Of a DNA stretch of 64,000 bases, positions 15,083 through 64,000 are shown piece after piece. The notes below the pieces were generated by a model. That model saw only the letters and a list, made by a program, of their open reading frames with translations. It had not been told where the DNA came from and did no database searches. How positions within the stretch are numbered: the first letter of the stretch is position 1; each line of letters starts with the position of its first letter. Location of the stretch: contig NC_065542.1 of assembly GCF_932294415.1 (NCBI RefSeq), positions 55,114,406 to 55,178,405 on the forward strand, given 5' to 3'. Origin of the DNA: Quercus robur (Eukaryota; Streptophyta; Magnoliopsida; Fagales; Fagaceae). The translations under genes and the position numbers were made by a program.

Positions 15083-15118
<36 letters not shown>

Positions 15119-18366: not shown

Positions 18367-18950
18367 AAGGAGGGAAAGGCCGATCTTATTAAGAGGATGA
18401 ACCACTTTCTTAATACAAATTGGTCTGAGGAGACCGCATTTACATAAGAATTATTACCATTCACTCTCTTATCTCTCAGTGTTCTTCTAGTTTCTTCTTT
18501 GTCTCTTAATCCTTCTCCCTCTCTGTGTGAACCTCATTTTTCTTATATACTCCTTTTATTACATCTTAACCATCCATCCTTACCTAACATCCCTCCTCTT
18601 ATGACATTTGTCACTTCTTACATTTGAAGAAGGTGGCGGAAGGATTCTGTTTAGCTGTGACTTATACTATTCAGGTCACTTCCTCATAAATGCAGTTGAT
18701 AAAACTGTTGCCCACCATTTAATACGAAGGTGACAGGTTACTCCAAACTAGAAATTTCCCCTATGGTCACTAATTCTCTCTCTCTCTCTCTCTCTCTTCA
18801 GACTCTTGCTCCCACTTACAATGCCACAGAGTACTTTGACTCATCTCTTCCTCTCCTCTAGCGCCTTTCCTCCTCTGGTCCGTGGACTGCGGCATCCTCA
18901 CAGTTATATGGCAACTCTTCATATCCATCCTTGGTCCTCGGACACCCACA
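18367..18950 (+). repeat. 3' LTR, partial
   Basis: Matches the 5' LTR from its ggagggaaagg block to the CACCCACA end. About 140 bp of the LTR start is not recognisable here, and a T tract stands before it. It has the same (CT)n run (about 18776-18797). Confidence 0.7.
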
Positions 18951-18955
18951 ATTAT

Positions 18956-37048: not shown

Positions 37049-37067
37049 TATATTGAGTAAAAAATAA
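37049..37067. repeat. LINE target-site duplication, left copy
   Basis: tatattgagtaaaaaataa, identical to 43043-43061. Confidence 0.9.
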
Positions 37068-37071
37068 AAAA

Positions 37072-38868: not shown

Positions 38869-38899
38869 GGTCTGTCTCTCTTTGTATTATCAGTTAATA

Positions 38900-43061: not shown

Positions 43062-45711
43062 GTCTTGTATTATAAGGGCACATCTAAAATGTTCATGAAT
43101 CATACAATACATAGATGCATATTGTTTAAATCATATCATAAAATCATGTGTCGTACGATACACAAACACGTGGATTTAAAATGAGTTATTTATTTATTTA
43201 TTAAAATTTGTGCTTTTACTTGAGTCTAAGGAGTTGTTAGACTTGTTTTTGACACAACATTACTAAGCTACTTAATTGAGCCCAATAAAATAACTTGTCC
43301 ATGAGAGAGAGAGTGTGTGTGTGTGTGTTTTTTTTTTCCTTAAAAAATTTAGACTACACACTTGATATTTCACTTCCATATTTGCAAATATATTTTATAT
43401 ACTATTAATTTGGTATTAAACGACAAAATAATTATTTATTTCTTTATTATTATTATTACAAGTCTAAGAAGTTAGAATGCCAAGAAGAAATATAAAGAAA
43501 TTTCATTAAAATAAAAGAACAAGAACAAATAGTAAATGTTGATAATGAATATGATAATAACATTAGCTTAGGTTGAGTTGATTAGGTAAGACGATTAATA
43601 TAATGAAAAGAAATTATTATTTTAGTTTTTATGTCGTGTATTATCACTTTTGAGTTTAATAAATTTGAATGTATATGTTATAAATATATGTTAATTTGAT
43701 TTATTTAATTAGTATTGTTAAATATTATTAAATAAGTGATGATTGAATTAGTCATTATTTGAATATATTGCAAATTTATAATGAAGATACCTCTTATATA
43801 TTATATAGATATATAATTTTTTTTTTAAATTATTAGGTGTCTATGTATTTATAATACACGATACAAAAAAATTAAAATTCAGTTCATGATACGATTATCA
43901 TTTTGACAATTATGAATGAATGTAATGTAGGGTCTATATACTAGAGAATATTTGACTAACTCTAAGTTAATTTTAGACTAACTCAATGTTAATTTGCTTG
44001 TTGTACATATATATAGACCTAAAATTGGTTCAGAGTTAGTTTAACTAGTAAAATCTTTTATCATCGAAAAAAGTTATGGAGTTTATTTCCCACTTACACA
44101 AAAAACCAATTGGTGTATTGATATGATGATAAAAAGCAATCATCAAAAGTAGATGCTCTATATATATACACACATATTTTGTACCATTTAAATAGATGTA
44201 ATCAAAACAAAGTGCCGCAAAACTAAATACATACTATAAGATTCAAATAACAAATTTATAGTGCCAATGGGAAAGAATCAAAGAATTGACAAAATGATAG
44301 TAAAAACTAAATGAAAGATATACAAAAATAATCTTTAAAATTGCATGGGTAATGGTATGGAAGCATGTTCATCAACGACGACAGTAATATTTGAACTCCT
44401 TGGTGATCTTAATCCCAATAATTGAATCTTCTTTTTGGTATTTTGTACTTGGAATCGTAGTTTTACTTTCTTTTTTCCTTTTTGCAACTTCGGGTTTCAA
44501 CTCTAATGACTTCTCTTATAAAAAATAAAAAACTCCGATGACTTCTCCTTCTCTTTTTGGAACCTTTTCTTTTTGAAAGAGTTGAACTTGCATTAGCTGC
44601 AGGCGTAAATCCCATTTGTGATTCTGTAGCAATAAGATAGACAAGTTGATATTGATCACACCATAGTCTTGTTGTCTTATCACCGTTCATCATTAACATA
44701 CCACTCTTGCATTAAAGTATGTGCAAATATGTACATTTAAAAAAAGTTTATTACAAGTTTCAAAAAGAAAAAAAAAAGTTTATTACACGTGTTAATTAGA
44801 GAAGTCAAAATTTCAATTGTTTTTTTATGCTTGTAAAAATATGTATATTACCGTATTTGCAATAAGTTTTTGCCTTTTCAAAAATACTCCCTTCTATTAA
44901 AATTTGAAAACTACAAAAATAATGAAAAACTTTATGGTAATGGCCCCTTCAATTTTTTTTTTTTTTTTTTTTTTAAGTATAAACACTCATTTTGTATTAG
45001 TGTCTAATTTGTTCTTTTATTATTCAATTTTTGCCACATATAACTCATTAATTTTGTGAACGTTTAAGAAATATGTTTATAAAAATATATAACTAAATCT
45101 CTTTAGTAAATGTTACTTTTCTTTTCCAAAACAAACTCATTTTCATTTGCATTTAGAAAGTTTGGAATGCAAGGATACAATTTTATTTATTTTTTACATA
45201 TTTATATTAGATTGTATATGTTAAGGCATTAGAAGATGACATTTATTAGTTTTTTTTTTTTTGAGAAACAAACACACACACAAAAAAAAAAAAAAATGAG
45301 GTACATTTATTAATTAATTTGTAAGCATTTTATGCTTTTGAATCTTTGATAGCTAATTTTAAAAAAGAAACTGCAACTATAATTTTTGCCCCTTCGATCA
45401 AATTGAAGAAAATGGAGAAACCCCCAATTAATAATTAACACTTGCTTGTATGAAAAAAAATAAAAAAAGTTAGAATTCTACCAAAGTTCTCAACATTTAT
45501 CTTATAAAAAAAAAAAAAAAGTTAAAAAAAAAAAAAATTCAAGATTTACATGCTCAATGAAGGTCAATGTGGAAATCAAAAAAGAAAAAAAGAAAAAAAA
45601 ATGGAAATCCATCAAAGCAAAACTCTACACTAGTCTGGAAAAAAAAAAGTCCTCATTTGAAAAAAAGAAAAAGAAAATCTTGTTAAACAATTATTACTTC
45701 ACATTCCATAG
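43062..45711. other. Intergenic, AT-rich, no gene
   Basis: Short open frames only. Ends with a 165-bp direct repeat (44900-45045) and A-rich DNA before the AUG3-like fragments. Confidence 0.5.
44900..45045 (+). repeat. Direct repeat, left copy, flanking the AUG3/SAD2 chimera
   Basis: Contains gaaaaactttatggtaatgg, ccccttcaattt, then a T tract, and acactcattttgtattag with cttttattattcaattt. The same blocks in the same order recur at 47885-48068. Confidence 0.7.
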
Positions 45712-46960
45712 GACGACGCTCGCCCCATTCTCGACTGGATCTGCTCCAGTCTCCGCTTCTCTCTTTTTCAATTTTCCATTTCAATTAGGGTTTCTTATTT
45801 TCGTTTACTTTAAATCACAGGCGTGAGCAATTTTCCACTGAATTTGAATTTTTTGGGTGATTACAGGGAGAGAGAGGACTTGGACTTTGCTTTTGATGAT
45901 AGCATTTCTGCCTTTTCTGCTAGATCAGGAACGAAGCACCTTGTTGTACATTTTTCGCTTTGAATTGACAAATTATGTATGAAATATATATGAGGCATCA
46001 AACATATTTGGGGTTAGGGTTTCAAATTTGCATCATAGTAATGTTTGTTGTAGTATATTTGGGGTTAGGGTTTCAATCTTTGTTAAATATGCATATTTAT
46101 TGCTTGCCTTTTTTTCATGATTGAGAGATAGGGCTTTTAAAGTTGAAACCGTAACTTTTGTATTAGGTTCATCTCCATTTGAAATGGGTTTATTTCGTGG
46201 TTTTTATTAAATATTACTAATCTAAAGATGTAATGAGTACTGTTCCATAACTTTTAGCCTTTCCCAGTAAAGTGTGAAATGGATTTGTTGGGTTTGTGGT
46301 TTTACTTTTGGCACAAAGGATTAGGGTACGCACATTGTGTTTGATACTTTATTTCTCTGATTTTAATCTGTTGATGGTTTTGAGTCCAAGATTTTGGACG
46401 CAATGAAATGGAGTTTCATTTTAGGAGCAGAAATTTTAGTGAGTTTGAATCATGATGGATGATATGTATCTGTGTCTTAATTTGATGCTGAATCCAATGA
46501 TTATCTTCTGGGTTGTATTTGGTTTTCACTTTATTTTATTATATTAACTAAACATGGTGTTAGATTCATTATGACATGACACATTTTTGTGTGCCCACTT
46601 AATGCAGCAAAAGATGCTGAAGGTAAAACCTTATCCAAGCCACCCCTTCTAGGGCCTCACTTAGTTGGGAGACAAATTCTCTCTCTCTTAGCTTCTGATG
46701 AAATTTTTTGTTGTTGATGTATTTGTGGTCAATTTTTTGGGTTAGTGATAATGAAATTCTAGTATTCTGCTTCCAATGCTGATTTTTTTAATTAAAGGAT
46801 TCTTAAAAATTGTAATTTATTTCTAGGGTTGCAACTTTGGCATATAAAGCTGAAGCTTTAGAGTTGCAGAAACAACTCAGGCATATTCAGTCTCAATTTG
46901 ATATGCACAACTTACAGATCTAGATGATAGTCTTTCAGTGAGAAATATGTAAGCTATGAT
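45712..46960 (+). pseudogene. Augmin subunit 3 (AUG3) gene fragments, left copy
   Basis: Three exon-like pieces still separated by intron-like DNA. 45712-45756 reads DDARPILDWICSSLR; 45867-45929 reads EDLDFAFDDSISAFSARS after a tacag acceptor; and 46830-46912 reads ATLAYKAEALELQKQLRHIQ then SQFDMH. All match plant AUG3 (HAUS3), a subunit of the augmin complex that recruits gamma-tubulin to microtubules. The last piece has lost about 24 codons seen in the right copy (GRRARVAATSTVNGRLTN) and continues out of frame. Gene start and remaining exons are absent. Retained introns show a DNA-level copy, not a processed transcript. Confidence 0.75.
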
Positions 46961-47032
46961 AAATGGAATATACTTTTGAACTTGTTCACTTTTATGATAG
47001 TTTTGATTTAAACTATGCAAATTTGATTAGTC

Positions 47033-47443
47033 TGGTTCTGGAGTTCTTTAAACTTATGAATGAGGTTGAGAATGAGGACCTTGTCTTTATTTTGGAGACT
47101 ATAGTGGATAAGTTTGGGGAGGAGATGGCACCTTAAGCTCTTGGGTTATGCCAAAATTTGGTACTGTTAGCCTCCATTTTTATTTGATTTTACACACGTA
47201 TATTCAGAAGTGCTTGACAACTTCTTTTTTTAATAAATATTCAAACAGCTGCATTTTGGAGGTGCATGAACACAGCTGAAGCTGAAGATGAAGCTGATGA
47301 TCCTGGTGCTTTGGCTGCAGTTTGCTGTTTGCGTGCCATTAGCACAATTCTTGAATCAGTGAGCAGGCTTCCTCAACTTTTTGTCCAAGTTGAACCAACT
47401 GTGGTCCCTATTATGCATAGAATGTTAACAAGTGATGACCAAG
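47033..47443 (+). pseudogene. SAD2-like importin-beta gene fragment, left copy
   Basis: Two exon-like pieces. 47033-47160 reads [20 protein letters not shown], then [12 protein letters not shown], a stop, and ALGLCQNL. 47248-47443 reads [20 protein letters not shown], then [20 protein letters not shown] and [20 protein letters not shown] before a GTATG donor. These match plant SAD2 (importin 7/8-like nuclear import receptor), whose [20 protein letters not shown] is contiguous once the intron is removed. Only a small part of the roughly 1000-residue protein is present. It follows AUG3 pieces with the same orientation. Confidence 0.75.
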
Positions 47444-47884
47444 GTATGTATTCTAATACCTCAATTTGGCTTATTTTTGACATTGTTTGTATTCTTTTTT
47501 GAATCTTTTTATTTCCTGATAAGGTTTTGCTGCCAAAGAGGATTGGTGGGCCTTGTATATGTTGTTATCAATAACTCTCAAGGGTATTTAGTTTGATTGT
47601 GTATTATGTTTTCTGTATATATTGGATTCTTTATCTTCTTGAGTGTTTGCGGTTGACAATTGTTTAAAGGATTGGAATTTCTGCTATTTTGTATGGGTAC
47701 GTAAAGGGTTTCTGTATCCTGTCCTTGTGCCTTCACATGTAAATATACACAAGCACTTCTGCGTAAAGGGTAATTCTACTTTGTTACTACTGTTCATTTT
47801 TCTGTTGAATTTTCTTGTGGCTTGCCAAGTAAAAAATTTAATTTTTTTCTTATGCCCCGTCTTTGAGTTTTGATAATACTTGGC

Positions 47885-48068
47885 CCATTGAAAATTACAA
47901 AAATAATGAGAAACTTTAAGGTAATGGCCCCTTCAATTTTTTCTTCTTTTTGTTTTTGTTTTTTGTTTTTTTGTTTGTTTTTGTTTTGTTTTTTTTTTTA
48001 AAGTAAAACACTCATTTTGTATTAGTTTCTCACTTGTTCTTTTATTATTCAATTTCTACCACATACTT
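47885..48068 (+). repeat. Direct repeat, right copy, flanking the AUG3/SAD2 chimera
   Basis: Same blocks as 44900-45045, with a longer T/G-rich middle. It suggests that the chimera is bounded by a direct repeat about 3 kb apart. Confidence 0.65.
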
Positions 48069-48601
48069 CACAATGCTACTGAAGGAAACAAAGTTGGCAC
48101 TGTGACGAGTATTTCTTGCACATTTGTATCATAAAGTATTGTACTACGGTGTGCATGTAACTTGCTAAAAGCTTACTCTGTGGGAATACAATTGATTATT
48201 GCAGGACCTTGTGTATGCTTCCGAAGGCAGCTCAGGTTCATGTGCACCGTAGTGGTATGATTTCTGCCTATGATCTGTACGAACTATTTATGTACGGAAT
48301 GGTATGTCTATTCACTTTGCACTAAAAAGAATAGAACACTAGGTTAGTTGTCTATTTATGTACGGAACATGGACAACCGACATCTACTGGGAAAGCTCAA
48401 ATCTTGAAGCACGTAAGCTTTGTTCATGACAATAAGTATGCCACGTCCAATATTTATATACCATCCGAATCCTTTTGTTCTTATCATCACTCAGATGTGC
48501 TCTATGGTGCTAATCATAGATACGGTTAAAATCACGGGACAAGTAAAAAATGTCCATATCTTTCCTATGCAGAGCGGGGTATGTATAAACACGAAAAACA
48601 T
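48069..48601. other. Intergenic, no gene seen
   Basis: Short open frames only; no domain or repeat recognised. Confidence 0.4.
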
Positions 48602-48754
48602 TAGGGGGTGTTTGATTTGTGTTTTTAAACAACCATTTTCAGTTTTTAAATAATATTTCACGCATTTCAACGCACTTTTTCACCCACACGTATTTCCACA
48701 AATATTTTCAAACAACAATTTTCAGTTTTTAAACCCATGTACCAAACGGGCCCT
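48602..48754. mobile_element. Short MITE, 153 bp
   Basis: The ends are imperfect inverted repeats: tagggggtgtttgat on the left and, on the complement of the right, tagggcccgtttggt. Inside are two direct copies of caaccattttcagtttttaa / caacaattttcagtttttaa. No clear target duplication. A fragment lies at 36219-36302 on the other strand. Confidence 0.6.
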
Positions 48755-51700
48755 AGATATTCAAAATATCACTTTTGTAAATATTGACTCAAGTGTCGAA
48801 GTAATTTTAGCCAACACCATACTAGTGTCACTTCAAACTTATTTGTGGTCTTTTTTTTGCCAGCCTTTAAAACCCTTAGTAGAACATGTGACTGCTAACT
48901 TAACCCCTTGACAATTGTTGAATATGTTATGAAAATTATTTTGACTCCACACTAAAATTATGAAAAGTTATTGTCTTAAAATTATTTGGGTTTATATGTA
49001 TATATATAAAATCAAAAAGTGTAGCTTCTATTCTCACGCTTGTGATGAAAAGGGGATGCACTATCTTGTCCCGCAGTCATAAACTTCCACTCCCACTATT
49101 ATCATTAGACAACCAGGTGCTGCTGTGCTGCTGAGTGGTAAGTGCGACTAAAAATTGAAATTGGGGCATAGGAATAGGAATAGGATTTGTCATTAGGCAA
49201 AGACAGACATTGAGATTTATTTAGGTAATGTACACTGTACAGATGAGTTGTGTTGTGTTGTGTTTTTGTGTGTTAGCCGTCTTGGTCGTTGTAATAAGAC
49301 TTAAGTATAAACGATAAAACTACCCACTCCCATCATTTTGTATTCCTCTTCTCACCTTCCACCCTGGCATCCTCGTCCGTACCCTGTCCCCTTCCACGTC
49401 CCGATTCCCCACCTCACCGGTTACCTCCTAAACCAGTCACTACCCCCCCTCACACGTGTTATCCACTCTAGCCCCCGATCCTCTCACACGTGCGTACTAC
49501 ACCCCCCATAAGACGCTTCCCCTTCTTTCTTTCTTTCAGTGGTGGAATTGGTGCAACAAATAACAGTTAGAGAGAGAAAGAGAACCCAAAGATATTAAAA
49601 AAAAATAGGGTAAATTTCAGAAAACACCTCTGAGATTTGGATTAATTACAGTTAGGTCTAATATATTTTTAAAATGACCAATTTGGTCCTTAAAAGACAA
49701 AAATACCCTCACACCGTTACCCCTCTTAACCCTCCGTTACACTTTTCTTTTCTTGTCTTTCTTCCTCACAGACCTGCTCTCCCACTCTTCCTCTTGGTGG
49801 TTCCTTTGATCCTCCCAGCCAAAACCCCACTCTCCCTCTCTAACCTCAGATCTGCTACTACCACCACCAGCCATAAAACTTAGCCAAACCATAGCATCAA
49901 GACCCAAATCCAAAAAGCCTTTAGCATCCTCCACTGCAAATCCAAAAAACCATAGCATCCTCCACTGCAAATCCACCCCATACCGGAAACCACCACCCAC
50001 CACTGAAAACCACCGCCGGCCAGAAAACCCAAAGAAAAAAAAAACCCCAAAACCCAAAACAAGCCACACAAACATCGGATCCCACCACCACCGCCGGCCA
50101 CAAGACCCAAAGAAAAAAAAAAAAAACCCACAAACCAACCACATCAGAGCCCACCAAAAAAATCATCAACAAACCAAAACCAACCACTAGAAAACGCACC
50201 ACCACCGCAAAAACCACCTAAACCACAACTCACAGCCACCAAACCCACGCACCACTATGAAGAAAAGAGGCATGGACGAGAGAAACAGAGGCTTGAGAGG
50301 GAGGAGAGTGGATCGGCTTGGAGAGAGAGAGAGTCAAATCTTATATATTTTTTTGTGCACCGATGAGGATCCGTAAAAGACAGGTACCTTTCCCTCTCTC
50401 ATCTCTCTCTCCGGTTCCTCTCTCAGATCCCCTGTGGTGCAACTCCAGCTCCACAATACCACACAACCAAAAGCCTCACACCCACTTGAAAATCTCTCCC
50501 CACAAAGTGATAGATATGCCCACTTTGGTCCTCAGCAGTCTGATCAGCCCAATCAACGTCTCCCACCGATCCGTGGAGGAAGCAACGGCTTGGATCTCTC
50601 TGATGATGTTGCTAGTGGGCCACACAACGAGGTGAAGAAGAAAGATTGTTTGGTTAGTGGAAAATGAAACAACCTTTTATCATCAATTTCTTTTTTTTTT
50701 TTTTTCTCTTACTGTTGTTTGTTTTTATTTATATTTGTGTGTTTATGACAGTGCACTTTGGTTCAATGTGCCCTAAAGATTTCATGTGTATGAATTTTCC
50801 CTTATGTTAAATTTTAAGGAACAAGCATATATGTGTGAGTGAGTGGATCATGGGTGTGTTTTTTGATTTTGCAGGAGTTGTTTTTGCAAGGAAAAGATGA
50901 GAGAGGCGGAGTGGAAGAGAAGAGTAATGATACCAGGTTAGAAAAAAAAGTCCCCTCAAAAAAAAAAAAAAAAAAAAAAACAAAAACAAAAGCTAATCCA
51001 TGTTCTTATTCATCTTTCATGAGATCTTGTAGTGAAAAAAGTGAAAAGAAGGAGACCCATAATTTGATTTTACCCATGTAGAAAAAAAAATTTTAAAAAG
51101 AAAAAAAAAAGAAGGGAAAAGAAAAAAACTGTAAGTGGAAATACTGTTTAAGGTGTTTTTATATCAGCTTTGCTAGCCACCATACCTTCCCATCTAATCT
51201 AATCTAGCTAGTCTTTTTTATCTCTTATTTATCTTTGGCTCTTAACTAATATTCCCCATGCGGTGCACGTTAGCATGGGTTGCTTGCTGGTCCCAGCTAC
51301 TATATATCTTGCCCTCTATTGCACCTTTATTAATTTTTGGGGTTTTATTTGGTTCTTTCTCTTGGGCTGTACAAAATTTCATGTTTGTGGTTGTGTGTAT
51401 CTTCTGGGTCTGTTGTGCTTTCAGGATGGGAGGCATTTTGGGTGCAGAAACTGTTACTGGGGTTCTTTCAGAATCAAGTGCTTCCCGTCAAGGTAATAGT
51501 TTATGTAATTATACTAGATAAATTAGTGATCATAGAATCTCTTATATATATGCCATTAGATAGTATTCAAATGTGGTGTTGAGAATGTTAGTAATGGTGG
51601 TAGCAATATTGCGAAGAAGAGAGCAAGAGGTGTTGTTCAGTTGTTGTGCTTTAAAAAAAAAAAAAATGTTCTTATGCATTTTTTTTGAGATAAATCTTAT

Positions 51701-52276
51701 GCATCTATTTTGGTGATAACATATTACTAAAAACTTTTAAATCTATATTTCTGAATTTTAGTATAACATGATTTGATGAAAGAATAGTGCTATATTTCAA
51801 TCAATTTTCATCAAATATTTTTATATAATTATATTTAAATTATGTTGGCCTCACTTACCATCTAATTTTCTATAAGAGTCTGTTTGGTTTAAGTGATTTG
51901 AGCGCTTAAAAATGTATTTTTAAAATCTAAAATGATGCTTGCAACAACTCCTTGTAAATTTTTTACAAATGTTTATTTTAAACCCAAAATGTATCAAGGT
52001 GACCTGAAAAACAAGAGAGTCAACTTTCATAGACAACATTGCACACCAAATTGCCTCCAAAGAGGAGAAGTGTTCTGCCTGGAAGCCAAATCTAATTTGG
52101 CATCCAGTTTCTAGTTCCATTATGTCATTAGCATTTTGAGAGTACTTACATTAATTGGGAAGCAAAATTTGCTATGATTTTTTCATCAAAATTTTTGTAC
52201 ATGGTATACCAAAGGAGAAACATTAGTCTTTTAGCATGCATATAGACTTACTTGAGGAAAAGTAGAATTACCATGC
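48755..52276. other. Mostly unannotated stretch; possible gene at 50.3-51.5 kb not resolved
   Basis: Contains a C-rich region with two G-box motifs (listed separately), a stretch beginning gggtaaatttcagaaaacac (about 49608) that resembles a degraded Mutator-like end, and a Pro/Lys-rich low-complexity region (49740-50260). A frame at about 50400-50667 reads QPNQRLPPIRGGSNGLDLSD and may be an exon. A later frame (51424-51493) reads MGGILGAETVTGVLSESSAS up to a GTAAT donor-like site. I could not join them into a gene or recognise a family. A(18) lies near 50960. Confidence 0.3.
49453..49492. promoter_or_regulatory. Paired G-box (CACGTG) motifs
   Basis: CACGTG at 49453-49458 and 49487-49492, both in the context tcacacgtg, in a C-rich stretch. 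They are palindromic sites for bZIP/bHLH factors in plants. They would suit a promoter of a gene to the right, but no gene is proven there. Confidence 0.3.
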
Positions 52277-52478
52277 AGTGAAAAAAATCTTGCTTTTTTG
52301 GCAATCCTCATCAGTGATGAAATACAAATCATAGACAGCATAGTGACACCCATTTGCAGGCAGAGACTCAGCTAAGTCCTCAGGTTTCATCTAGGCTTCC
52401 AAGTTCCTCTTCGCTTTTAGCTCCAAGAATTTCAGTTTACATTCATCACACAGCCATTCCAGATGGTGCATTTGCCTA
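52277..52478 (-). pseudogene. Actin-depolymerising factor (ADF/cofilin) relic
   Basis: On the minus strand, pieces in slightly different frames read NAPSGMAV, then [42 protein letters not shown] and [14 protein letters not shown]. This is the plant ADF order (SGMAV.DECKLKFLELKAKR ... SLPA.ECRYAVYDFDF ... [10 protein letters not shown]). A 2-base loss follows MAV, and the segment between KAKR and ELG (about 20 codons in functional ADFs) is missing. The C-terminal third is absent. It is a decayed fragment, not a gene. Confidence 0.7.
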
Positions 52479-53059
52479 ACCCAAAGGTTTTATTTTTGGA
52501 AAGAAAGAAAGGTATTATCAATCACAGAAGGCTTAACAGATGTCATCATGCATATACAATAAAGATGATAGGATTTATTTGTTTGGAGAGGAAAACAATA
52601 TCAATAAATGCATATCAGCATTTCTTTTATATGCTATAATTATCAGAAAAAGCATATTATCATTACTGGATTGCATCATAACTTAGTGCACTTGTGAGAT
52701 TACTGAAAGGCACTTTGAAATTACCCTCTATTTTTGATTGTGGCACCAAGTATAAGAGAATAAGAGATGATGGAAATAGCTAAATGTTGTTTATTTTGTT
52801 AAAATCTTCGCATCATGGAACAAAAATGATTTTATTCTCTTATGCTGCTTGTGTAGGATCAAATGAATATAGTTGCATGTCAAGAATATTTTCATAAATG
52901 AAATAACAGGAAGTAGCATGCAATGTTCATTTTGGGAAATTGAAAGTAACAACATACCAAAACTAATCCTAACTAAACTCAAATACTAATCCCCATCTAA
53001 TCTCAAATCGAATCCCTATCCAAATACTATTTGTCACATATGATGTTTTACAAATAGTC
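52479..53059. other. Intergenic, no gene seen
   Basis: AT-rich with no recognisable gene or element. Confidence 0.5.
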
Positions 53060-53070
53060 ATTCTAGGCTG

Positions 53071-54587
53071 ATGTCTCTCCCTCCCCCACCCCTCCCACCC
53101 TCCCCCACCCTCACCCTCACCCCCAACCCCCCCCCCCCCCCCCCCCCAACTCCCTCTCTTTTCCCTTGTATACCACCGGCTGTCCCACATACCAACTCCC
53201 TCCCTCCTTATCCTTTTACTTTTCCACCTCTACTCCCACCTTTTGGCCTGCCCTCTTACACCTTTTGTCATCCCTCTTTCCCTTCTAGTTTATGCCCTCC
53301 ATCATACCCCCTATTACCATCCTCTTTGCCTTTTAAACGTTCTGAGCCATCACCTCCACTGTTACCTGTTATCCCCATCTCTAAAACTGATACCAAACCA
53401 GCTTCAAACCTTCATACCACTCCATCTTTATCGGTTCAGGGGGGGAGTAAGATTCCTTTCCGTATTGATGCAAAGTTTTTCTCTTTTTCTTTCAATGGTG
53501 GGCGACATGACTCGTATGCTATTCATGAGAGCAGCTGGCATGTCAAGCACACTATTTGGGTAGGTCGTTAAGGATTGGAGTGGATCCTTTCTTGTTTTGC
53601 TGATATTCGTGATTGAGTTCCGGGAAAAGTTCCCATTTGCAAACGCTTCCGGGAAAATAATAAGTTGTTGGAATTCTGTGGGAGGTCGAATAGGTTGGTG
53701 TTTTTGTGGTCATAGCTGAATACTATGGTAGGGCTCATCGTGGGTGTGTTATGATACCAGCAAGCTCCAATCGTGCAGGTTGGTCTTTGTTTCAGAGAAA
53801 AATGAGGAATTTTTTCACCGGTGCTAAACTGCCTTCTATGGCTGAAGCATCCTCCAAAAATGGTGGTGATGGAGGTAGTCAGTCTGCTGGTGGTGACCGG
53901 AGTGGGAACCTTTTGTCTGCTTATAGTCATCAGCAAAAGTTTAGGAATTTTGAAAAAGTTGGAGCAATTCTGGGGCAGAGCGTGATTCCTGAAGTCCCTA
54001 CTGTAAATGGTTTGGTCTTAAATGGTAATGTTTCAGTCATCAATGGCAGACCCACTCGGGCTTTCACTTTTAAACGGACTCCTGCTACTTTGGCTCTGAA
54101 AGTGTGTAAGCCTGAGGGAGGGAAACGTTTTGTATCTTGTATGGATATAAATGAGTTCAGTTGGCCCAGAGTGTTTAGTGGCGAGTCTGAACTTATAATC
54201 CAATCTGATGGGCTTGCCAAAGCCCAACCCGTGGAATCTTTTAAGGGCACTTTGGTCAAACCTGGATTTTTTAAAGAGCCACTCGATGATCAGGCAACGT
54301 GGGTACAAGGGGAGAGCTCGAACGGTCGTGTGAGTTTAGTTGCCGGGCCGTCGGTGTCAGCAGCGTCGCCGGCGAGGGCAACGGTGGGTTCTAGGTCGCC
54401 GGTTATGTCAGTAGTGTCGTCGATGAGGGTGACAGTGGGTTCTGGGTCGCCGGCGGTGTCAGCAGCTTCATCGGCAAGGGTGACGGTGGTTTTTGGGTCG
54501 CCGGCGTTGTCAGCAGCGTTGCCGGCAAGCGCGAAGGTGGTTTCTGGGTTGCCGGTGACTACGGTGGCACCGGCGAGCGCGATGTAG
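53071..54587 (+). pseudogene. Transposon-associated ORF of unknown family, left arm
   Basis: A Pro-rich start leads to a conserved-looking stretch: KFFSFSFNGGRHDSYAIHES, HTIWVGR, GLEWILSCFADI, then AHRGCVMIPASSNRAGWSLF and FVSCMDINEFSWPRVFSGES. It ends in a repetitive Ala/Ser/Val-rich tail. I have the impression of a repeated ORF type from tree genomes that accompanies retroelements, but I cannot name the family or its function. The part from about 53550 on is repeated in reverse at 59693-60758. It is broken and directly abuts the truncated start of the receptor-like gene. Confidence 0.4.
53127..53147. repeat. poly(C) tract, 21 bases
   Basis: Lies within a C/T-rich stretch (53070-53300) that encodes proline-rich low-complexity sequence. 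Confidence 0.85.
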
Positions 54588-57072
54588 GGGTCCATTTCTA
54601 GGTTTTCTGAAGTGGAGGGGACTAATCTGAGGTCGAGGGAAGAGACCAAGACTCCGGCGAAGCTTATGGGACCTGGGTATGTCGTTTCTTCTCAACTTCA
54701 AGCAAGACCTTATTGATCCTTCAAATCGGCTCTCCTCTTGGACTGTTGATGGGGATTGTTGTCACTGGCTTGGTGTTGTCTGCCACAACCTCACTGCTCA
54801 CGTACATCAACTCCATCTCAGAAGCTTCCCTCCTGTTTGGGATGATTCAATGAGTCAGGAACAAAATGATGCTGAATATGAAGCTTATTGGCGGTCAAGG
54901 TTTGGTGGTAAGCTAAATCCTTCTCTCCTTGATTTGAAGCATTTGAATTACTTTGACCTCAGCTTCAATAATTTCTTTGCTTCTCCTATTCTCGAATGTC
55001 TCAGTTCAATGAAGAGTTTAACATCTCTTAATCTCTTTAATGCGGGATTTGTGGGACTCATACCTCATCAACTTGGAAATCTCTCCAATTTGCTCTATCT
55101 TAATCTTGAAGGCTATGGATCTAATGATTTATATGTGAATAACCTTCAATGGCTTTTTGGTCTTTCTTTGCTACAACATCTCGTTATGAGTTATGTTAAT
55201 CTTAGCAAAGCCTCTGATTGGCTACAACTCACAAACACACTCCCTTCCTTGTCAGAGCTACGATTGATAGCTTGCCAACTTCGTCTCATTCCACCGACAC
55301 TTACTATTAACTTTTCATCACTCCTCACCCTCGATCTTTCAGGAAACCAATTTGAAAACACTTTGATCCTATCATGGATATTTGGTCTTCGTAATCTTGT
55401 TTCTCTTGATCTATATGACAATTACTTTCAAGGTCCAATTCCTATTGATCTCCAAAACATGACTTCTCTTAGTCACCTCGATCTATCTTTGAACAATTTC
55501 AACTCTTCAATTCCCAATTGGTTGTATAGTTTTAGTCGGCTTGAGTTTCTTAACCTTCGCTTCAGTAATTTGTAGGGTACAATCTCCAGTGCCATTGGAA
55601 ACCTAACATCTGCCATTAGTATTGACTTGTCAAGAAATGAACTTGGAGGAAAGTTGTCAAGATCGTTGGGTAATCTCTGTAACTTAAGGGAAATCAGATT
55701 GTCATACAACAAATGGAGTCAAGAGATATCTGAAATCTTAGAAAGTTTATCAGGGTGTCTTTAAGATAGACTAGAGATCTTAGACTTAAGTAATTCTCAA
55801 CTTCATGGTCATTTGACAAATGAACTTGGGGTATTTAAAAATCTAGTCAAACTTTCTTTTCAGTATAATTCAATTTCGGGTCCAATTCCAGTGTCTTTAG
55901 CAAATCTTCCATCTTTGACATACCTGGATTTTTCAAACAATCATATCAATGGAACTCTCCCTCAGAATTTTGGACAATTGAAAAATCTAGTCGAACTAGT
56001 TCTTTGGAATAATTCAATCTCAGGTCCACTTTCGGTTTCTTTTGGAAATCTCTCATCTCTGACATACCTAGATCTTGGGAATAATCAATTGGAAGGAAAC
56101 CTCCCTCAAAATTTTGGACAGCTTTCCAAAATTGAGACTTTATATATTTATTCTAATATGTTGAAAGGTGTCGTGTCTGAAGTTCATTTTTCCGATTTAA
56201 CCAGTTTGAAGACACTTTCTACATCTGGAAACCAACTGACTTTAAAAGCAAGTCAAAATTGGATTCCTCCTTTTCAGCTTGAGTCTTTATCCTTGCGATC
56301 ATGGAATTTAGGGCCAAAATTTCCCCCATGGCTTTGTTCACAAAGGCATTTGCAGTCGTTAGACATTTCTGATACAAGGATTTCAGATGTGGTTCCTCCT
56401 TCATTTTGGAACTTGTCTTCTCAGTTCCAAATTTTAAATCTCTTCCACAATCTAATCCATGGAGAAATTCCCATGATTTTGTCTGCTTCAGTGATTGATT
56501 TAAGTTCAAACAATTTCAAAGGTCCGCTACCTTATATATCCTTTGATGTGTATGTGCTAGATCTTTCTAACAATTCATTCTCTAGATCCATTTCTCACTT
56601 TTTGTGTTTTAGAATGAATGAGCAAAAATACCTAGGATATCTCAATCTTGACAAAAATCATTTATCAGGAATAATACCTGATTGTTTGATGAAATGGAAC
56701 TACTTGGGGGTCTTGAGTTTGGGGAACAACAATTTTAGTGGCAGTATTCCACCATCCATGGGGGAAATTTTGGCCCTAAATTCCATGATTGCAAGGACAA
56801 AAACTCAAGCTGAAAAGGAGGAATCCAATTTTGACTTGCTTTTAGAGTCAGTTGGTTTCCAGATGCATAAAGTATCCTCAAACTGGTTAAATTGGAAAAA
56901 TGAACTTCAGACACCACACATTTCAACAAATTAGAACCAATATATAAAGTCTCAAGTTTGGAAAGCTGTCCAAAATTTTGAGGGAGAGTTCCATTGAATT
57001 GATTATTCCTAAGATCCAAGTATGTCAAAGATTGAAGATTTTCAAAAAAAACCGAAAGTGGACCTGAGATTG
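53550..57072 (+). repeat. Left arm of a 3.5-kb imperfect palindrome
   Basis: The sequence from about actatttgggtagg (53550) is found inverted down to 60758, and the match continues to about 57072/57268 near the centre. It includes the unknown ORF, the receptor-like N-terminal part and a short reversed receptor-like tail. Small differences between arms (substitutions, small indels) are visible throughout, which argues against a trivial assembly artefact. Borders are hand estimates. Confidence 0.8.
54679..56757 (+). pseudogene. Receptor-like protein (EIX2/Cf type), N-terminal LRR part, left arm
   Basis: The frame reads MSFLLNFKQDLIDPSNRLSS, then WTVDGDCCHWLGVVCHN, the LRR N-cap typical of plant receptor-like proteins. 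About 20 LRRs follow (for example LSSMKSLTSLNLFNAGFVGL and NLPSLTYLDFSNNHINGTLP), ending GNNNFSGSIPPSMG. The family consists of plasma-membrane immune receptors lacking a kinase. The signal peptide and the C(...)ERQALL start are missing; the unknown ORF stands there instead. Two in-frame stops interrupt it, at about 55573 (in RFSNL*GTI) and 55762. The first is shared by the right arm. At 56757 the sequence switches into reversed receptor sequence. Confidence 0.85.
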
Positions 57073-57597
57073 AATTATTCCAAAGAACCAGTTCGATTAG
57101 ATTTTTCAATTGTCCAAAATTCTGAGGGAGAGTTCCATTGATATGATTGTTTGAAAAATCCAAGTATGTCAAAGATGGAAGATTTGCTAAAGACACTAGA
57201 ATTGGACCCGAAATTGAATTATACTAAAAAGAAAGTTTGACTAGATTTTTAAATACCCCAAGTTCATCCGTCAATCTCAGGTCCACTTCCGGTTTCTTTT
57301 GAAAATCTTCAATCTTTGACATACTTGGATCTTAGGAATAATCAATTCAATGGAACTCTCCCTCAAAATTTTGGACAGCTTTCCAAACTTGAGACTTTAT
57401 GTATTGGTTCTAATATGTTGAAAGGTGTGGTGTCTGAAGTTCATTTTTCCAATTTAACCAGTTTGAGGATACTTTATGCATCTGGAAACCAACTGACTCT
57501 AAAAGCAAGTCAAAATTGGATTCCTCCTTTTCAGCTTGAGTTTTTATCCTTGCAATCATGGAATTTAGGGCCAAAATTTCCCCCATGGATGGTGGCA
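56757..57597. other. Centre of the palindrome: receptor-like pieces in both orientations
   Basis: 56757-57262 is minus-orientation receptor sequence running from the GPKFPPW region back to the DELGVFKNL region. 57263-57597 is plus orientation from ISGPLPVSFENLQS to LGPKFPPWM. The two outer switch points (ccaccatccatgggggaaat near 56757 and its complement near 57590) are mirror images, so they belong to the arms. The true asymmetric centre is the spacer at 57073-57267. A third switch at about 57272 joins tcatccgtcaa to tctcaggtcc. Confidence 0.75.
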
Positions 57598-59664
57598 TAC
57601 TGTCACTGAAATTGTTGTTCCCCAAACTCAAGACCCCCAAGTAGTTCCATTTCATCAAACAATCAGGTATTATTCCTGATAAGTGATTTTTGTCAAGATT
57701 GAGATATCCTAGGTATTTTTGCTCATTCATTCTAAAACACAAAAAGTGAGAAATGGATCTAGAGAATGAATTGTTAGAAAGATCTAGCACATACACATCA
57801 GAGGATATATAAGGTAGCAGACCTTTGAAATTGTTTGAACTTAAATCAATCACTAAAGCAGACAAAATCATGGGAATTTCTCCATGGATTAGATTTATGG
57901 GAGAGATTTAAAATTTGGAACTGAGAAGACAAGTTCCAAAATGAAGGAGGAAGCACATCTGAAATCCTTGTATTAGAAATGTCTAACGACTGCAGATGCC
58001 TTTGTGAACAAAGCCATGGGGGAAATTTTGGCCCTAAATTCCATGATCGCAAGGATAAAGACTCAAGCTGAAAAGGAGGAATCCAATTTTGACTTGCTTT
58101 TAAAGTCAGTTGGTTTCCATATACAGAAAGTATCCTCAAACTGGTTAAATTGGAAAAATGAACTTCAGACACCACACCTTTCAACATATTAGAACCAATA
58201 TATAAAGTCTCAAGTTTGGAAAGCTGTCCAAAATTTTGAGGGAGAGTTCCATTGAATTGATTATTCCTAAGATCCAAGTATGTCAAAGATTGAAGATTTT
58301 GAAAAGAAACCGGAAGTGGACCTGAGATTGAATTATTCCAAAGAACCAGTTCGACTAGATTTTTCAATTGTCCAAAATTCTGAGGGAGAGTTCCATTGAT
58401 ATGATTGTTTGAAAAATCCAGGTATGTCAAAGATGGAAGATTTGCTAAAGACACTGGAATTGGACTTGAAATTGAATTATACTGAAAAGAAAGTTTGACT
58501 AGATTTTTAAATACCCCAAGTTCATCCGTCAAATGACCATGAAGTTGAGAATTACTTAAGTCTAAGATCTCTAGTCTATTTGAAAGAAACCTTGATAAAC
58601 TTTCTAAGATTTCAGATATCTCTTGACTCCATTTGTTGTATGACAATCTGATTTCCCTTAAGTTACAGAGATTACCCAACGATCTTGGCAACTTTCCTCC
58701 AAGTTCATTTCTTGACAAGTCAATGCTAATGACAGATGTTAGGTTTCCAATGGCACTGGAGATTGTACCCTACAAATTACTGAAGCGAAGGTTGAGAAAC
58801 TCAAGCCAACTAAAACTATACAACCAATTGGGAATTGAAGAGTTGAAATTGTTCAAAGATAGATCGAGGTGACTAAGAGAAGTCATGTTTTGGAGATCAA
58901 CAGGGATTGGACCTTGAAAGTAATTGTCAGATAGATCAAGAGAAACAAGATTAGGAAGACCAAATGTCCATGATAGGATCAAAGTGTTTTCAAATTGGTT
59001 CCCTGAAAGATTGAGGGTGAGGAGAGATGAAAAGTTAACAGTGAGTGTCGGTGGAATGAGATGAAGTTGGCAAGCTATCAATCGTAGCACTGACAAGGAA
59101 GGGAGTGTGTTTGTGAGTTGTAGCCAATTAGAGGCTTTGCTAAGATTAACATAACTCATATCGAGATGTTGTAGCAAAGGAAGACCAGAAAGCCATTGAA
59201 GGTTATTCACATATAAATCATTAGATCCATACCCTTCAAGATTAAGATAGAGCAAATTGGAGAGATTTCCAAGTTGATGAGGTATGAGTCCCACAAATCC
59301 CGCATTAGAGAGATTAAGAGATGTTAAACTCTTCATTGAACCGAGACATTCGGGATTAGGAGAAGCAAAGAAATTATTGAAGCTGAGGTAAGTAATTCAA
59401 ATGCTTCAAATCAAGCAGAGAAGAATTTAGCTTACCACAAAACCTTGACCGCCAATAAGCTTCATATTCAGCATCATTTTGTTCCTGACTCATTGAATCA
59501 TCCCAAACAAGAGGGAAGCTTCTGAGATGGAGTTGATGTACGTGAGCAGTGAGGTTGTGGCAAACAACACCAAGCCAGTGACAGCAATCCCCATCAACAG
59601 TCCAAGAGGAGAGTCGGTTTGAAGGATCAATAAGGTCTTGCTTGAAGTTGAGAAGAAACGACAT
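57598..59664 (-). pseudogene. Receptor-like protein N-terminal LRR part, right arm
   Basis: Reading down from 59664: MSFLLNFKQDLIDPSNRLSS with the same N-cap, the same LRRs and the same end (NNNFSDSMPPSM). It differs from the left arm by scattered substitutions and by a 2-base loss near 59388 (after LKHLNY), another frame change near 57880, and a different residue pattern where the left arm has its second stop. It keeps the stop after RFSNL, at about 58770, seen in the left arm. Not functional. Confidence 0.85.
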
Positions 59665-59692
59665 ACCCAGGTCCCATTAACTTCGTCGGAGT

Positions 59693-60758
59693 CTAGGTCT
59701 CTTCCGTTGACCTCAAATTAGTCCCCTTCACTTCGGAAAACCCAGAAATGGACCCCCACATCGCGCTCGCCGGCGCCACCGTAGTCACCGGCAACCCAGA
59801 AACCACCTTCGCGCTCGCCGGCAACGCTGCTGACGACGCCGGCGACCTAGAACCCATCGTCGCCCTCACCGGCGATGCTGTTGACATAGCTGGCGACCCA
59901 GAACCCATCGTCGCCCTCATTGGCGACGCTGCTAACACCACCGGCGACCTAGAAATCGCCGGCGACGCTGCTGACACCGACAGCCCGACAACTAAACTCA
60001 CACGACCGTTCGAGCTCTCCCCTTGTACCCACGTTGCCTGATCATCGAGTGGCTCTTTTAAAAATCCAGGTTTGACCAAAGTGCCCTTAAAAGATTCCAC
60101 GGGCTGGGCTTTGGCAAGCCCATTAGATTGGATTATAAGTTCAGGCTCGCCACTAAACACTCTGGGCCAACTGAACTCATTTATATCCATACAAGATACA
60201 AAACGTTTCCCTCCCTCAAGCTTACACACTTTCAAAGCCAAAGTAACAGGAGTCAATTTAAAAGTGAAAGCCCGAGTGGGTCTGCCATTGATGACTGAAA
60301 TATTACCATTTAAGACCAAACCATTTACAGTAGGGACTTCAGGAATCACGCTCTGCCCCAGAATTGCTCCAACTTTTTCAAAATTCCTAAACTTTTGCTG
60401 ATGACTATAAGCAGACAAATGGTTCCCACTCCGGTCACCACCAGCAGACTGACCACCTCCATCACCAGCATTTTTGGAGGATGCTTCAGCCATAGAAACG
60501 GGTTTAGCACCGGTGAAAAAATTCCATATTTCTCTCTGAAACAAAGACCAACCTGCACGATTGGAGCTTGCTGGTATCATAACACACCCATGATGACCAC
60601 AAAAACACCAGCCTTATTCGACCTCCCACAGAATTCCAACAACTTATTATTTTCCCAGAAGCGTTTGCAAATGGGAACTTTTCTTGGAACCCAATCATGA
60701 ATATCAGCAAAACAAGAAAGGATCCACTCCAATCCTTTACGTCCTACCCAAATAGTAC
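59693..60758 (-). pseudogene. Transposon-associated ORF of unknown family, right arm
   Basis: Inverted copy of the left-arm ORF. The stretch VCMDINEFSW-type block (FVSCMDINEFSWPRVFSGEP) and the repetitive Ala/Ser/Val-rich tail are both present, the tail with a different number of repeats. Stays open for about 295 codons. Family unknown. Confidence 0.4.
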
Positions 60759-60768
60759 CTTTCTCCAA

Positions 60769-61323
60769 TTGGTAAAAAGTATAGACTTTTCCAAGAATAG
60801 TTTATCAGGAAAGATCCCCGTCGAAGTTACTAGTCTCCAAGGATTACAATCTTTGAATTTGTCATATAATCTCTTGATCGGAAGTATTCTTGAGAATATA
60901 GGTGCTATGGGATCACTGGAATCTATTGATTTCTCTTTGAACCAACTTTCGGGGCAAGTTCCCTCAATAATGTCAAGTTTGACATTTTTAAATCATTTGA
61001 ACTTGTCAAACAACAATTTGACTGGGAAAATTCCTTTAAGCACTCAACTACAAAGCCTTGATCCATCTAGTTTTATTGGAAACAAACTGTGTGGACCGCC
61101 ACTTACTAATAATTGTACTACAGATGGTGTAAAACCTAACATAAGAAGTAAAGATACTAGTGGAATTGAAGTGGATTGGTTCTATGTGAGCATGTCACTC
61201 GGCTTGGTGGTTGGGTTTTGGGGTGTATGTGGTCCTTTACTAATTAATAAGCAATGGAGAATGATGTACTTTCACTTCCTAGATCACATAGGGTACAAGC
61301 TTAAGAGTGTTGTCTTGTTGTAA
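60769..61323 (+). pseudogene. Receptor-like protein C-terminal part, severed from its N-terminal part
   Basis: The frame begins LVKSIDFSKNSLSGKIPVEV and continues through LRRs (GLQSLNLSYNLLIGSI, FLNHLNLSNNNLTGKIP). It then shows the C-terminal cap FIGNKLCGPPLTNNC, an acidic stretch, a membrane segment (FYVSMSLGLVVGFWGVCGPL) and a short basic tail (NKQWRMMYFHFLDHIGYKLK). This is the normal end of an EIX2-type receptor-like protein. The part joining it to the left-arm end (about 150 residues in relatives) is missing. It is in the same orientation as the left arm, suggesting that both came from one gene. Confidence 0.8.
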
Positions 61324-61627
61324 GATTCTTAATACTTTGTGCAAATGTTAAATATTGTAAGTAAATGCTGTCTTGATCATGTTAATATTTTGATGATTTC
61401 CAAATAATCTTTTTGTTGGTTAATACTTATATTATTAGTTAATTCACTCCATTAGCATATCTAAATATGGTGTTTCTTCCTGCTAGACCAAGAAGGAAGC
61501 ACCTTTTTGGCATTGAAGAAAGATATTGGGTATTCTTTCTACATATTGCTTTTACTTGTATATGGTTGTCAACTACCATGGACTGAAATTCACTCACCGC
61601 TTCTATAACTTACCAATAAGAACATGG
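61324..61627. other. Receptor-like 3' flank
   Basis: No gene; AT-rich DNA between the receptor C-terminus and the second AUG3/SAD2 copy. Confidence 0.5.
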
Positions 61628-62870
61628 CTGTTGTACATTTTTCGCTTTTATTGACAAATAATGTATGAAATATATATGAGGCATCTACAGCAAACTCATT
61701 TAGGGTTAGGGTTTCAAATTTGCATCATAGTAGTGGTTGTTGTAGTATATGCCTTTGATGATGAGTTTCCTTTTCAGTTAAATATGCATATTTATTGCAT
61801 TCCTTTTTTCATGTTTGAGAGATAGGGCTTTTAAAGTTTAAACTGTAACTTTTGTATTAGGTTCATCTCCATTTGAAATGGATTTATTTCGTGGTTTTTA
61901 TTAAATATATTTACGAATCTAAGATGTAATGAGTGCCGTTCCATAACTTTTAGCCTTTCCCAGTAAGCTTATCAACAAAACGCTTGTGTTTGTGTATAAA
62001 AGCTTTCTTCTAGAAATTAAAAACGCCTTACATATTCAAGTACTTCTTAGCTGTGAATCAAGAATTTTGGTTTACAGATGAAACAGAGGTAAAGTGTGAA
62101 ATGGATTTGTTGGGTTTGTGATTTTACTTTTGGCACAAAGGATTAAGGTATGCACATCGTGTTTGATACTTTATTTCTCTGATTTTAATATGTTGATGGA
62201 ATTAATGTGGGCAAGGATTTTGTTTTGAGTCCAAGATTTTGGACGCTATGAAATGGAGTTTAATTTTAATAGCAGAAATTTTAGCGAGTTGAATCATGAT
62301 GGATGATATGTATCTCTGTCTTAATTTGATGCTGAATTCAATGATTATCTTCTGGGTTGTATTTGGTTTTCACTTTATTTTATTATATTAACTAAACACA
62401 GTGTTAGGTTCATTATGACATGAGACATTTTGTGTGCTCACTTAATGCAAAAAATGCTGAAGGTAAAATCTTATCCAAGCCACCCCTTCTAGGACCTCAC
62501 TTAGTTGGGAGACAAATACTCGATCTTTTAGCCTCTGATGAAATTTTTTGTTGTTGATGTATTTGTGGTGAATTTTTTGGGTTACTGTTAATGAAATTCT
62601 AGTATTCTGCTTCCAATGCTGATTTTTTTAATTAAAGAATTCTTAAAAATTGTAATTTATTTCTAGGGATGCAACTTTGGCATATAAAGCTGAAGCTTTA
62701 GAGTTGCGAAAACAACTCAGGCATATTCAGTCTTAATTTGATATGCACCCTGGCCAGGCTTTGTCCGTAATCCAAGGAAGACGGGCACGGGTTGCTGCAA
62801 CATCTACTGTCAATGGACGCCTTACAAATCTAGATGATAGTCTTTCAGTGAGAAATTTAGAGGTATGTAA
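61628..62870 (+). pseudogene. AUG3 gene fragment, right copy
   Basis: From ttgttgtacatttttcgctt on, the sequence follows the left copy (from about 45943) through intron-like DNA. The AUG3 exon at 62667-62862 reads DATLAYKAEALELRKQLRHI, then QS, stop, FDMHPGQALSVIQGRRARVA and ATSTVNGRLTNLDDSLSVRN before a GTATG donor. It keeps codons lost in the left copy. It also has about 120 bp near 61968-62090 absent from the left copy. One stop in the exon; upstream AUG3 exons are absent. Confidence 0.75.
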
Positions 62871-62954
62871 GCTATGATAAATGGAATATATTTTTGAACT
62901 TGTTCACTTTTATGATAGTTTAGATTTAAAATATGCAATTTTGATTAGTTCGGT

Positions 62955-63235
62955 TCTAGAGTTCTTTAAACTTATGAATGAGGTTGAGAATGAGGACCTT
63001 GTCTTTATTTTGGAGACTATAGTGGACAAGTTTGGGGAGGATATGGCACTTTAAGCTCTTGGGTTATGCCAGAATTTGGTACTGTTAGCCTCTATTTTTT
63101 ATTTTTATTTTACACATATATTCAGAAGTGCTTGACAACTTCTTTTTTTAATAAATATTCAGGCAGCTGCATTTTGGAGGTGCATGAACACAACTGAAGC
63201 TGAAGATGAAGATGGTGGTTCTGGTGCTTCCTAAA
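62955..63235 (+). pseudogene. SAD2-like importin fragment, right copy
   Basis: [20 protein letters not shown], then [10 protein letters not shown], a stop and ALGLCQNL. After the intron comes [20 protein letters not shown], where the copy ends in AS and a stop. It shares with the left copy a stop at the Tyr of the expected APYALG. It is shorter than the left copy at its 3' end. Confidence 0.7.
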
Positions 63236-63362
63236 AGACACGTCTCTCAGCAGTTCTTACCTCCAGTTTCAAGACATTTATACTGGAGTTTCATATTTTT
63301 TTAGAGATATTATTCATTTAATATATTGGTTGTGCTTGCTGGGGAGCAATAGCTAAAAGGTA

Positions 63363-64000
63363 ATGTCTGTAAGGGATCTAGACTCTTACTTGCGATTGGT
63401 CATATGGAAGTTTTACACTTTTCTAGGCCCCAATTTAGGTGGACAATTTCTCAAACATCATATTGAAGAGGGAAATGGTACTTATCTTTCGATGGATAAT
63501 TGGCATCTTGAGGATCCTCTGTTACTTGAATATGGACCTTGGATCAGTAATGACAGTCAGTGCTGTGAATGCAAATGTCTTGTCTGCTCGCAATGGAGGA
63601 AACTAAAATTGGCAGCCAACAAATTTGAGGCTTTGGTTCATATTCATGGCAAGTTTTTTGAGGTGAACATTGATCAAAATGCAGCAGAAAATTTCAATTT
63701 AGAAATAACAAAATCTTGAAACTTCAAATTTAGGGGCATCATGGAATGCTATTAGACTTACTGCACCAAATGTTTAGCAGTGCAAGGTTTCCTGGTTTTC
63801 TAAATCTATTTGCAAGCTTAGTTTCATAGCTTGGCTAGCAATTAAGACTAGATCTAGGGATTGGTGGCTGCAATGGGGTTACCAAGATGGTGTACTGTGT
63901 TGCTTGTTTAGAAGATGGGGAAAGTAGAGATCATCTATTCTATTCTTGTGGATGTTAAAAACATTTTTGGGAGAAACTATTAGGCTTTGTTCAATTCCTA
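63363..64000 (+). pseudogene. LINE ORF2 relic (zf-RVT region), runs off the right edge
   Basis: GQFLKHHIEEGNGTYLSMDN then WHLEDPLLLEYGPWISND is the plant LINE segment after the reverse transcriptase (GNG..T..W.DNWHP.GPLL..Y). Further on, SWFSKSICKLSFIAWLAIKT and a ...LFRRWGK...SILFLW-type zinc-binding region follow in decayed form. It continues beyond the window. Only the region after the reverse transcriptase is seen here. Confidence 0.65.

Follow-up and report, generated by a model that had tools for sequence, protein, structure and literature searches.

Described inverted duplications and the oak locus

Inverted gene duplications have been described from Arabidopsis, maize and rice, and fold-back inverted duplications from humans. 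Here they are compared with a palindrome made from a receptor-like protein (RLP) gene in Quercus robur. The palindrome lies in a window of 64,000 nucleotides, which is the whole stretch analysed (positions 55,114,406 to 55,178,405 of contig NC_065542.1, assembly GCF_932294415.1).

The PAI1-PAI4 locus of Arabidopsis is a tail-to-tail inverted gene duplication with CMT3-dependent repeat methylation (PMC3203196). A minority of its transcripts read through the centre and can fold back. Its small RNAs help keep CMT3-type methylation on the repeat and on unlinked copies (PMC3203196). The oak locus is likewise an inverted duplication of a gene. At PAI1-PAI4 the transcripts, the small RNAs and the methylation have all been measured, and the effect extends to two unlinked PAI genes (PMC3203196). 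The oak arms, in contrast, are already broken half-genes, and their putative silencing is read from a mutational footprint only.

Maize Mu killer is a partial inverted gene duplication, as is the oak locus, and its proposed hairpin is about 4 kb (PMC3440606). Unlike the oak locus, it has a transposon as its target, and its silencing was shown genetically (PMC3440606). The silencing is tied to short antisense RNAs and not to read-through hairpins (PMC3440606). The inverted pseudogene pairs of rice that give hairpin small interfering RNAs (siRNAs) are adjacent inverted copies, and the oak arms share this geometry (PMC2708354). The rice example has a stem of 185 bp (PMC2708354), whereas the predicted oak stem is 3.5 kb.

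Human fold-back inverted duplications contain an unduplicated spacer and short inverted microhomology at the junction (PMC3907307), as does the oak palindrome. Inverted microhomology of 2-8 bp was found at 13 of the 21 sequenced human junctions (PMC3907307). Those cases are large duplications beside terminal deletions, with a spacer of at least 766 bp (PMC3907307). The oak palindrome differs in that it has 3.5-kb arms and a 197-bp spacer and lies inside a gene.

No inverted-repeat locus of RLP genes was named in the titles and abstract beginnings of the open-licence literature, among the matches listed. Mimulus YUP and Antirrhinum SULF are close cases. Inverted gene duplications are viewed as a seed of the small-RNA regulators of plant immunity, a view stated for nucleotide-binding leucine-rich repeat receptors (NLRs) (PMC10575705). 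The oak locus would add an RLP-gene case with readable birth scars (a nested fold-back, short overlaps and about 0.4 kb lost) and with silencing apparently written in its substitutions. Both the birth of such loci and their action in cis or in trans could be tested cleanly on this natural example. Should it prove inert, it would be no more than a legible fossil of fold-back repair.

Anatomy and putative origin of the palindrome

An earlier note on this DNA had reported two arms of about 3.5 kb, facing each other about 195 bp apart, with the same upstream open reading frame (ORF) and the same leucine-rich repeat (LRR) half-gene in each. Self-BLAST of the window confirmed the arms almost to the base. 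The left arm (53551-57073) matches the minus strand of 60756-57271 at 94.498% identity over 3526 columns, with 151 mismatches and 18 gap openings. The pairing is beyond chance (E=0.0), and the arm pair is the longest among the repeat pairs listed. The loop between the arms covers 57074-57270 (197 bp). The shared content of the arms was borne out by ORF comparison and by the arm alignment. The MAFFT alignment of the arms has 3525 columns and contains five gaps (1, 1, 25, 12 and 2 bp), with 156 substitutions in its 3484 gap-free columns. Under softer scoring, 53551-60756 matched its own reverse complement at 93.0% over 7265 columns. To the account in the earlier note the analysis adds a C-terminal RLP part directly right of the palindrome and a nested fold-back in either arm. 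The features are as follows.

53551..57073, plus strand: left arm, with ORF X, the RLP N-terminal LRR half and a nested inverted piece; 94.498% identical to the right arm
57074..57270, no strand: loop of 197 bp, the inner end of the nested inverted LRR piece 56756-57274 (self-comparison)
57271..60756, minus strand: right arm, an inverted copy of the left arm (self-BLAST)
53694..54587, plus strand: left copy of ORF X, with a 51-bp tandem array near its end (ORF list, Pfam scan)
59693..60613, minus strand: right copy of ORF X; 85.9% protein identity to the left copy over 283 residues
54634..56755, plus strand: left RLP N-terminal half, with LRRNT_2 and LRRs, a premature stop at 55573-55575, and an end at the nested fold-back junction
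57589..59703, minus strand: right RLP N-terminal half, with the same stop (58770-58772) and further frame damage
60757..61323, plus strand: RLP C-terminal LRRs and tail, abutting the right arm (domain scan, PDB match)
56756..57274, minus strand: nested inverted copy (519 bp) of the LRR segment 55813-56331, in the same direction as 58014-58532 (self-comparison)
57271..57588, plus strand: 318-bp counterpart of the nested piece, mirrored in the right arm; an inverted repeat of 58014-58331 (self-comparison)
57271..57274, no strand: central junction, a 4-bp overlap fitting both joined sequences

The ORFs of the arms encode LRR and LRRNT domains (Pfam), and many plant LRR receptors were matched in the PDB search. 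On the solved receptor-like protein 7drb_C, which we take to be RXEG1, the left-arm N piece aligns to residues 343-680 and the C piece to 817-932. The 136 residues between them are missing, at the place where the inverted copy sits. Other LRR receptors outscored 7drb_C in both match lists, as is usual for repeats. The gene is presumably of the EIX2/Cf type, a label taken from the earlier note; what the searches gave is the two domains and the 7drb_C match.

An intact RLP gene contains a leader, LRRNT, LRRs and a membrane tail in one frame. This gene does not. No leader-like stretch was found in three frames of 54540-54720 (left arm), and about 136 residues are lost. A TAG stop stands at the same place in both arms (55573-55575 and 58770-58772). 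The fusion of the RLP sequence to ORF X is also common to both, and the arm alignment is gap-free there. Because the premature stop and the fusion are shared, the gene was probably dead before it was doubled. This supports, and sharpens, the claim that the palindrome was made from a broken immune-receptor gene: the breakage probably came first. The other lesions differ between the arms. Measured against the left arm, the right has a 2-bp gap, and its LRRs carry an additional base; its first LRR piece holds a further stop. A stop private to the left arm falls in the stretch that follows this piece.

The right arm looks like an inverted copy inside the RLP gene, because the C-terminal end lies at its outer edge and about 136 residues are missing. 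The simplest reading is a single RLP gene that was split by its own 5' part, copied in inverted orientation. The N and C ends would then belong to one gene; the C end could instead be the remnant of a neighbouring copy. The left arm appears to be the original, judging from gene order and from the open frame that crosses 53551. That frame is the ORF 53044-53571, whose end crosses the arm edge at the outer left boundary.

ORF X was assigned to no Pfam family at the curated cut-off. Its left copy scored 13.2 bits for Bac_transf (cut-off 27), and its right copy had no match at E up to 1. Against PDB it had two matches, both only at E=1.6, and no relatives were found in viral contigs. The 51-bp tandem array near its end contains 4.0 copies at 54355-54556 and 3.3 copies at 59788-59954. 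The arms are least similar there, with 86% in the 200-column window at 54350.

The inner junction of the nested piece, at 56756, is CCATGG, a self-complementary hexamer found in both joined sequences. How much of the hexamer counts as microhomology would depend on how the gene, now lost beyond this point, continued. Both arms contain the nested turn, which therefore came first or in the same event. In the four-copy segment, 34 of the 318 columns are variable; four of them unite nested versus main copies and one supports cross pairing. These columns lend weak support to a nested turn that is older, or whose copying was less exact. The 197-bp spacer is present once, and its LRR sequence has homologues further out in the arms. 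A 4-bp microhomology occurs at the arm/spacer junction (57271-57274). This anatomy is that which would be expected of fold-back template switching.

One tract, 56045-56221, is an outlier. Of the 34 variable columns, 21 set its left copy apart from the three sister copies, which agree. The window self-comparisons list nothing closer to it, which suggests conversion from an RLP relative elsewhere in the genome. Fast local change is possible.

The proposed events start from a chromosome piece in which ORF X is fused to a 5'-truncated, already stopped RLP gene. The piece would break inside the RLP gene. The free end would fold back at CCATGG, and later at the 4-bp match, copying its own strand. 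After the second turn the polymerase would copy its own product, giving X-RLP(N)-nested piece together with its mirror image. The mirror image would then be joined to the remaining RLP gene, with a loss that the anatomy puts at about 0.4 kb. The palindrome would have decayed from then on as silenced CG- and CHG-methylated DNA, judging from its substitution pattern.

Substitutions between the arms

The arms differ by 115 transitions and 41 transversions, and 77 of the transitions are at CG or CHG when contexts are taken loosely. The strict counts required a context identical in both arms; sites of ambiguous context (23 of 174 differ) were set aside. C/T differences then occur at 24/135 CG, 26/170 CWG, 9/38 CCG and 33/981 CHH sites (CWG versus CHH, P=2e-8). 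The outlier tract (56040-56225) and the tandem array (54340-54560) were left out of the counts for the separate parts. The footprint is present in the RLP part alone (CG 7/38, CWG 14/90, CCG 6/12, CHH 18/671; P=3e-6). It is weaker in the ORF X part (CG 7/49, CWG 7/54, CCG 0/10, CHH 10/241; CWG versus CHH, P=0.02). In the LRR pieces the rise at CHG is seen at all three codon positions (8/33, 5/25 and 7/26, against 3/219, 7/168 and 6/169 at CHH). The T sides are split evenly between the arms (CG 13:18, CHG 22:24, CHH 22:16).

In Arabidopsis, CG and CHG cytosines are more prone to mutation when methylated (PMC8145854). Because the differences between the oak arms concentrate at CG and CHG, evenly in both arms, they suggest ageing rather than read error. 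They also suggest the footprint of transposon-like methylation. The arms look like silenced repeats, with methylation read via the mutational footprint only.

Three other repeat pairs within the window served as controls. The exon-like gene-fragment pair 45942-47311 / 61629-63229 is high at CG (9/16) but not at CWG (5/50, against CHH 28/345; P=0.59). Under looser contexts, its CHG/CHH odds ratio differs from that of the arms with z=2.97. Another control is the direct repeat pair 14675-15269 and 18367-18951, which is taken up below. The third pair is too small (CWG 1/7, CHH 5/66).

The null used for the selection tests keeps the context-biased substitution spectrum. In the LRR halves, 51 of 78 changes are non-synonymous (null mean 0.714, P=0.11), and in ORF X 37 of 50 are (P=0.68). 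The second LRR piece (N2) alone gives P=0.46. The Nei-Gojobori ratios are 0.44 and 0.64 for the two LRR pieces and 0.88 for ORF X. The joint LRR and ORF X values give little sign of purifying selection on the arms. To us the pattern is one of near-neutral decay, in which constraint left a trace at most.

Hairpin potential and competing explanations

The very long RNA hairpin put forward in the earlier note holds as a fold prediction, and at that level only. The read-through RNA of 7206 nt has a predicted fold of -6273 kcal/mol, a value without a shuffled control. In this fold 3370 of the 3502 arm positions pair with their own mirror, because the arms are a repeat. In the predicted stem, 47 helices run for at least 21 bp without interruption; the longest reaches 222 bp with G-U allowed. 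Windows identical in both arms and in register number 1616 at 21 nt and 1473 at 24 nt. The 3.5-kb arms and 197-bp loop are within the limits set for such hairpins (stem >100 bp, loop <2 kb). No known RNA family was found in 44000-64000 at the gathering score. By geometry and predicted fold, the locus would be placed with loci of the PAI or Mu killer type.

We give a probability of about 0.6 to the reading that this is a fold-back repair of a dead receptor gene, since silenced, whose hairpin siRNAs, if any, act mainly in cis. Transcription through the locus would give a 3.5-kb near-perfect hairpin RNA that Dicer-like (DCL) enzymes should cut. By analogy with Arabidopsis PAI1-PAI4, the likeliest use of such siRNAs would be to keep the palindrome itself methylated. 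Cis action, if it occurs at all, would run as it does there, with the read-through RNA folding back and small RNAs maintaining methylation.

Several results weigh against this reading. The 4-bp overlap is at the top of the 0-4 bp found in simulated junctions (PMC3907307). The 197-bp loop is shorter than the range of 766-70,466 bp given there (PMC3907307). The outer junction has no clear microhomology. With its outlier tract at 56045-56221, the left LRR copy shows that the record of events has been blurred by conversion or fast change. The first LRR piece (N1) alone has 22 of 36 changes non-synonymous (P=0.047), and the LRR pieces without the outlier tract have 34 of 55 (P=0.059). Two stops were found and 5.7 expected (P=0.055). 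ORF X may be a transposon-type sequence that brings its own silencing. The direct repeat pair 14675-15269 / 18367-18951 shows the footprint too (CWG 8/14, CHH 22/176). The CG and CHG footprint is not specific to inverted repeats, as ordinary transposon silencing also gives it. With another window repeat carrying the footprint, repeat-driven and transposon-driven silencing are therefore not separable by it.

The palindrome could instead be an inert relic: a silenced pseudogene structure that yields neither a transcript nor small RNAs and whose footprint came from transposon-type neighbours. We hold this to be possible but rather unlikely. The near-neutral substitution pattern, the frame damage in both arms and the other window repeat with the same footprint would fit it. 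The presence of the footprint in the RLP part of the arms alone does not, and no CWG footprint is seen in the gene-fragment pair, of which the right copy begins about 0.87 kb beyond the palindrome (5/50, small numbers). PAI1-PAI4 also shows that an inverted gene repeat is recognisable (PMC3203196). This explanation and the next are both compatible with a fold-back origin, and the likelihoods given here do not sum to one.

In the reading suggested by the earlier note, the palindrome would be a working siRNA locus that acts in trans and adjusts functional RLP relatives. It would be likened to Mu killer acting on MuDR, or to inverted duplications turned microRNA (miRNA) genes. We regard it as improbable. 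It would draw on the long predicted stem and on the 21- and 24-nt windows identical between the arms. The geometry also agrees with the first of the two rice hairpin-pseudogene criteria, of which the second is small-RNA density (PMC2708354). The outlier tract, with no better match in the window, hints at another RLP relative in the genome. Against it, a tblastn search of the window with the arm and C-terminal pieces gave no RLP copy, and so no RLP target, outside the locus. Read-through transcripts of Mu killer went with failed silencing, and minor long hairpins were left possible (PMC3440606). The near-neutral decay and the silencing footprint favour an inert or cis role. The fuller version, in which a dead RLP gene became a fold-back long-hairpin locus whose siRNAs hold down a surface immune-receptor family in trans, is slightly less probable still. 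If it were true, the locus would be a young, long-stem precursor stage of the path from inverted duplication to miRNA. That path would then be seen for surface receptors rather than NLRs.

An assembly artefact, such as a fold-back chimera or a misjoin, is very improbable: fold-back chimeras are a known long-read artefact, but the 156 substitutions in 3484 columns are biased to CG and CHG transitions (77 of 115, loose contexts), read errors are not expected to track methylation context, gaps are few (five in MAFFT, 18 openings in BLAST), and the flanks differ on the two sides, one supplying the RLP end. A transposon with long terminal inverted repeats, of the foldback or Pack-MULE type with a captured gene fragment, was rejected and deserves equally little credit: it would account for long inverted arms with gene fragments, but a target duplication shared by the outer flanks could be 2 bp at most (AC, by eye), the arms end against RLP coding sequence on the right and inside an open frame on the left, and no transposase domain was found by Pfam in the nine ORF pieces scanned.

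The palindrome is flanked by the exon-like gene pieces 45942-47499 and 61629-63229, which are in the same orientation and 15.7 kb apart. They are presumably importin-type; one exon-like piece had no match in PDB at E up to 0.01. The similarity stops sooner in the right copy. One piece contains a stop at the same place in both copies, and because of this the left copy need not be an intact gene. The intervals 45942-47311 and 61629-63229 were also considered as the long terminal repeats of a retrotransposon. This was rejected by eye on the interior gaps and the exon-like coding pieces, and the pair looks like a copied gene fragment.

The window also encodes a xyloglucan endotransglycosylase and a glycosylphosphatidylinositol (GPI) transamidase subunit, and it contains a long interspersed nuclear element (LINE), a content that fits plant nuclear DNA. 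The LINE retrotransposon (37057-42413) encodes DUF4283, endonuclease, reverse transcriptase and zf-RVT parts in several frames. The direct repeat pair 14675-15269 and 18367-18951 is 87% identical, with a CG and CHG transition bias, and is possibly a silenced transposon. An inverted repeat pair was found at 16124-16352 and 17210-17438. Its copies are about 230 bp long, 95% identical and about 860 bp apart.

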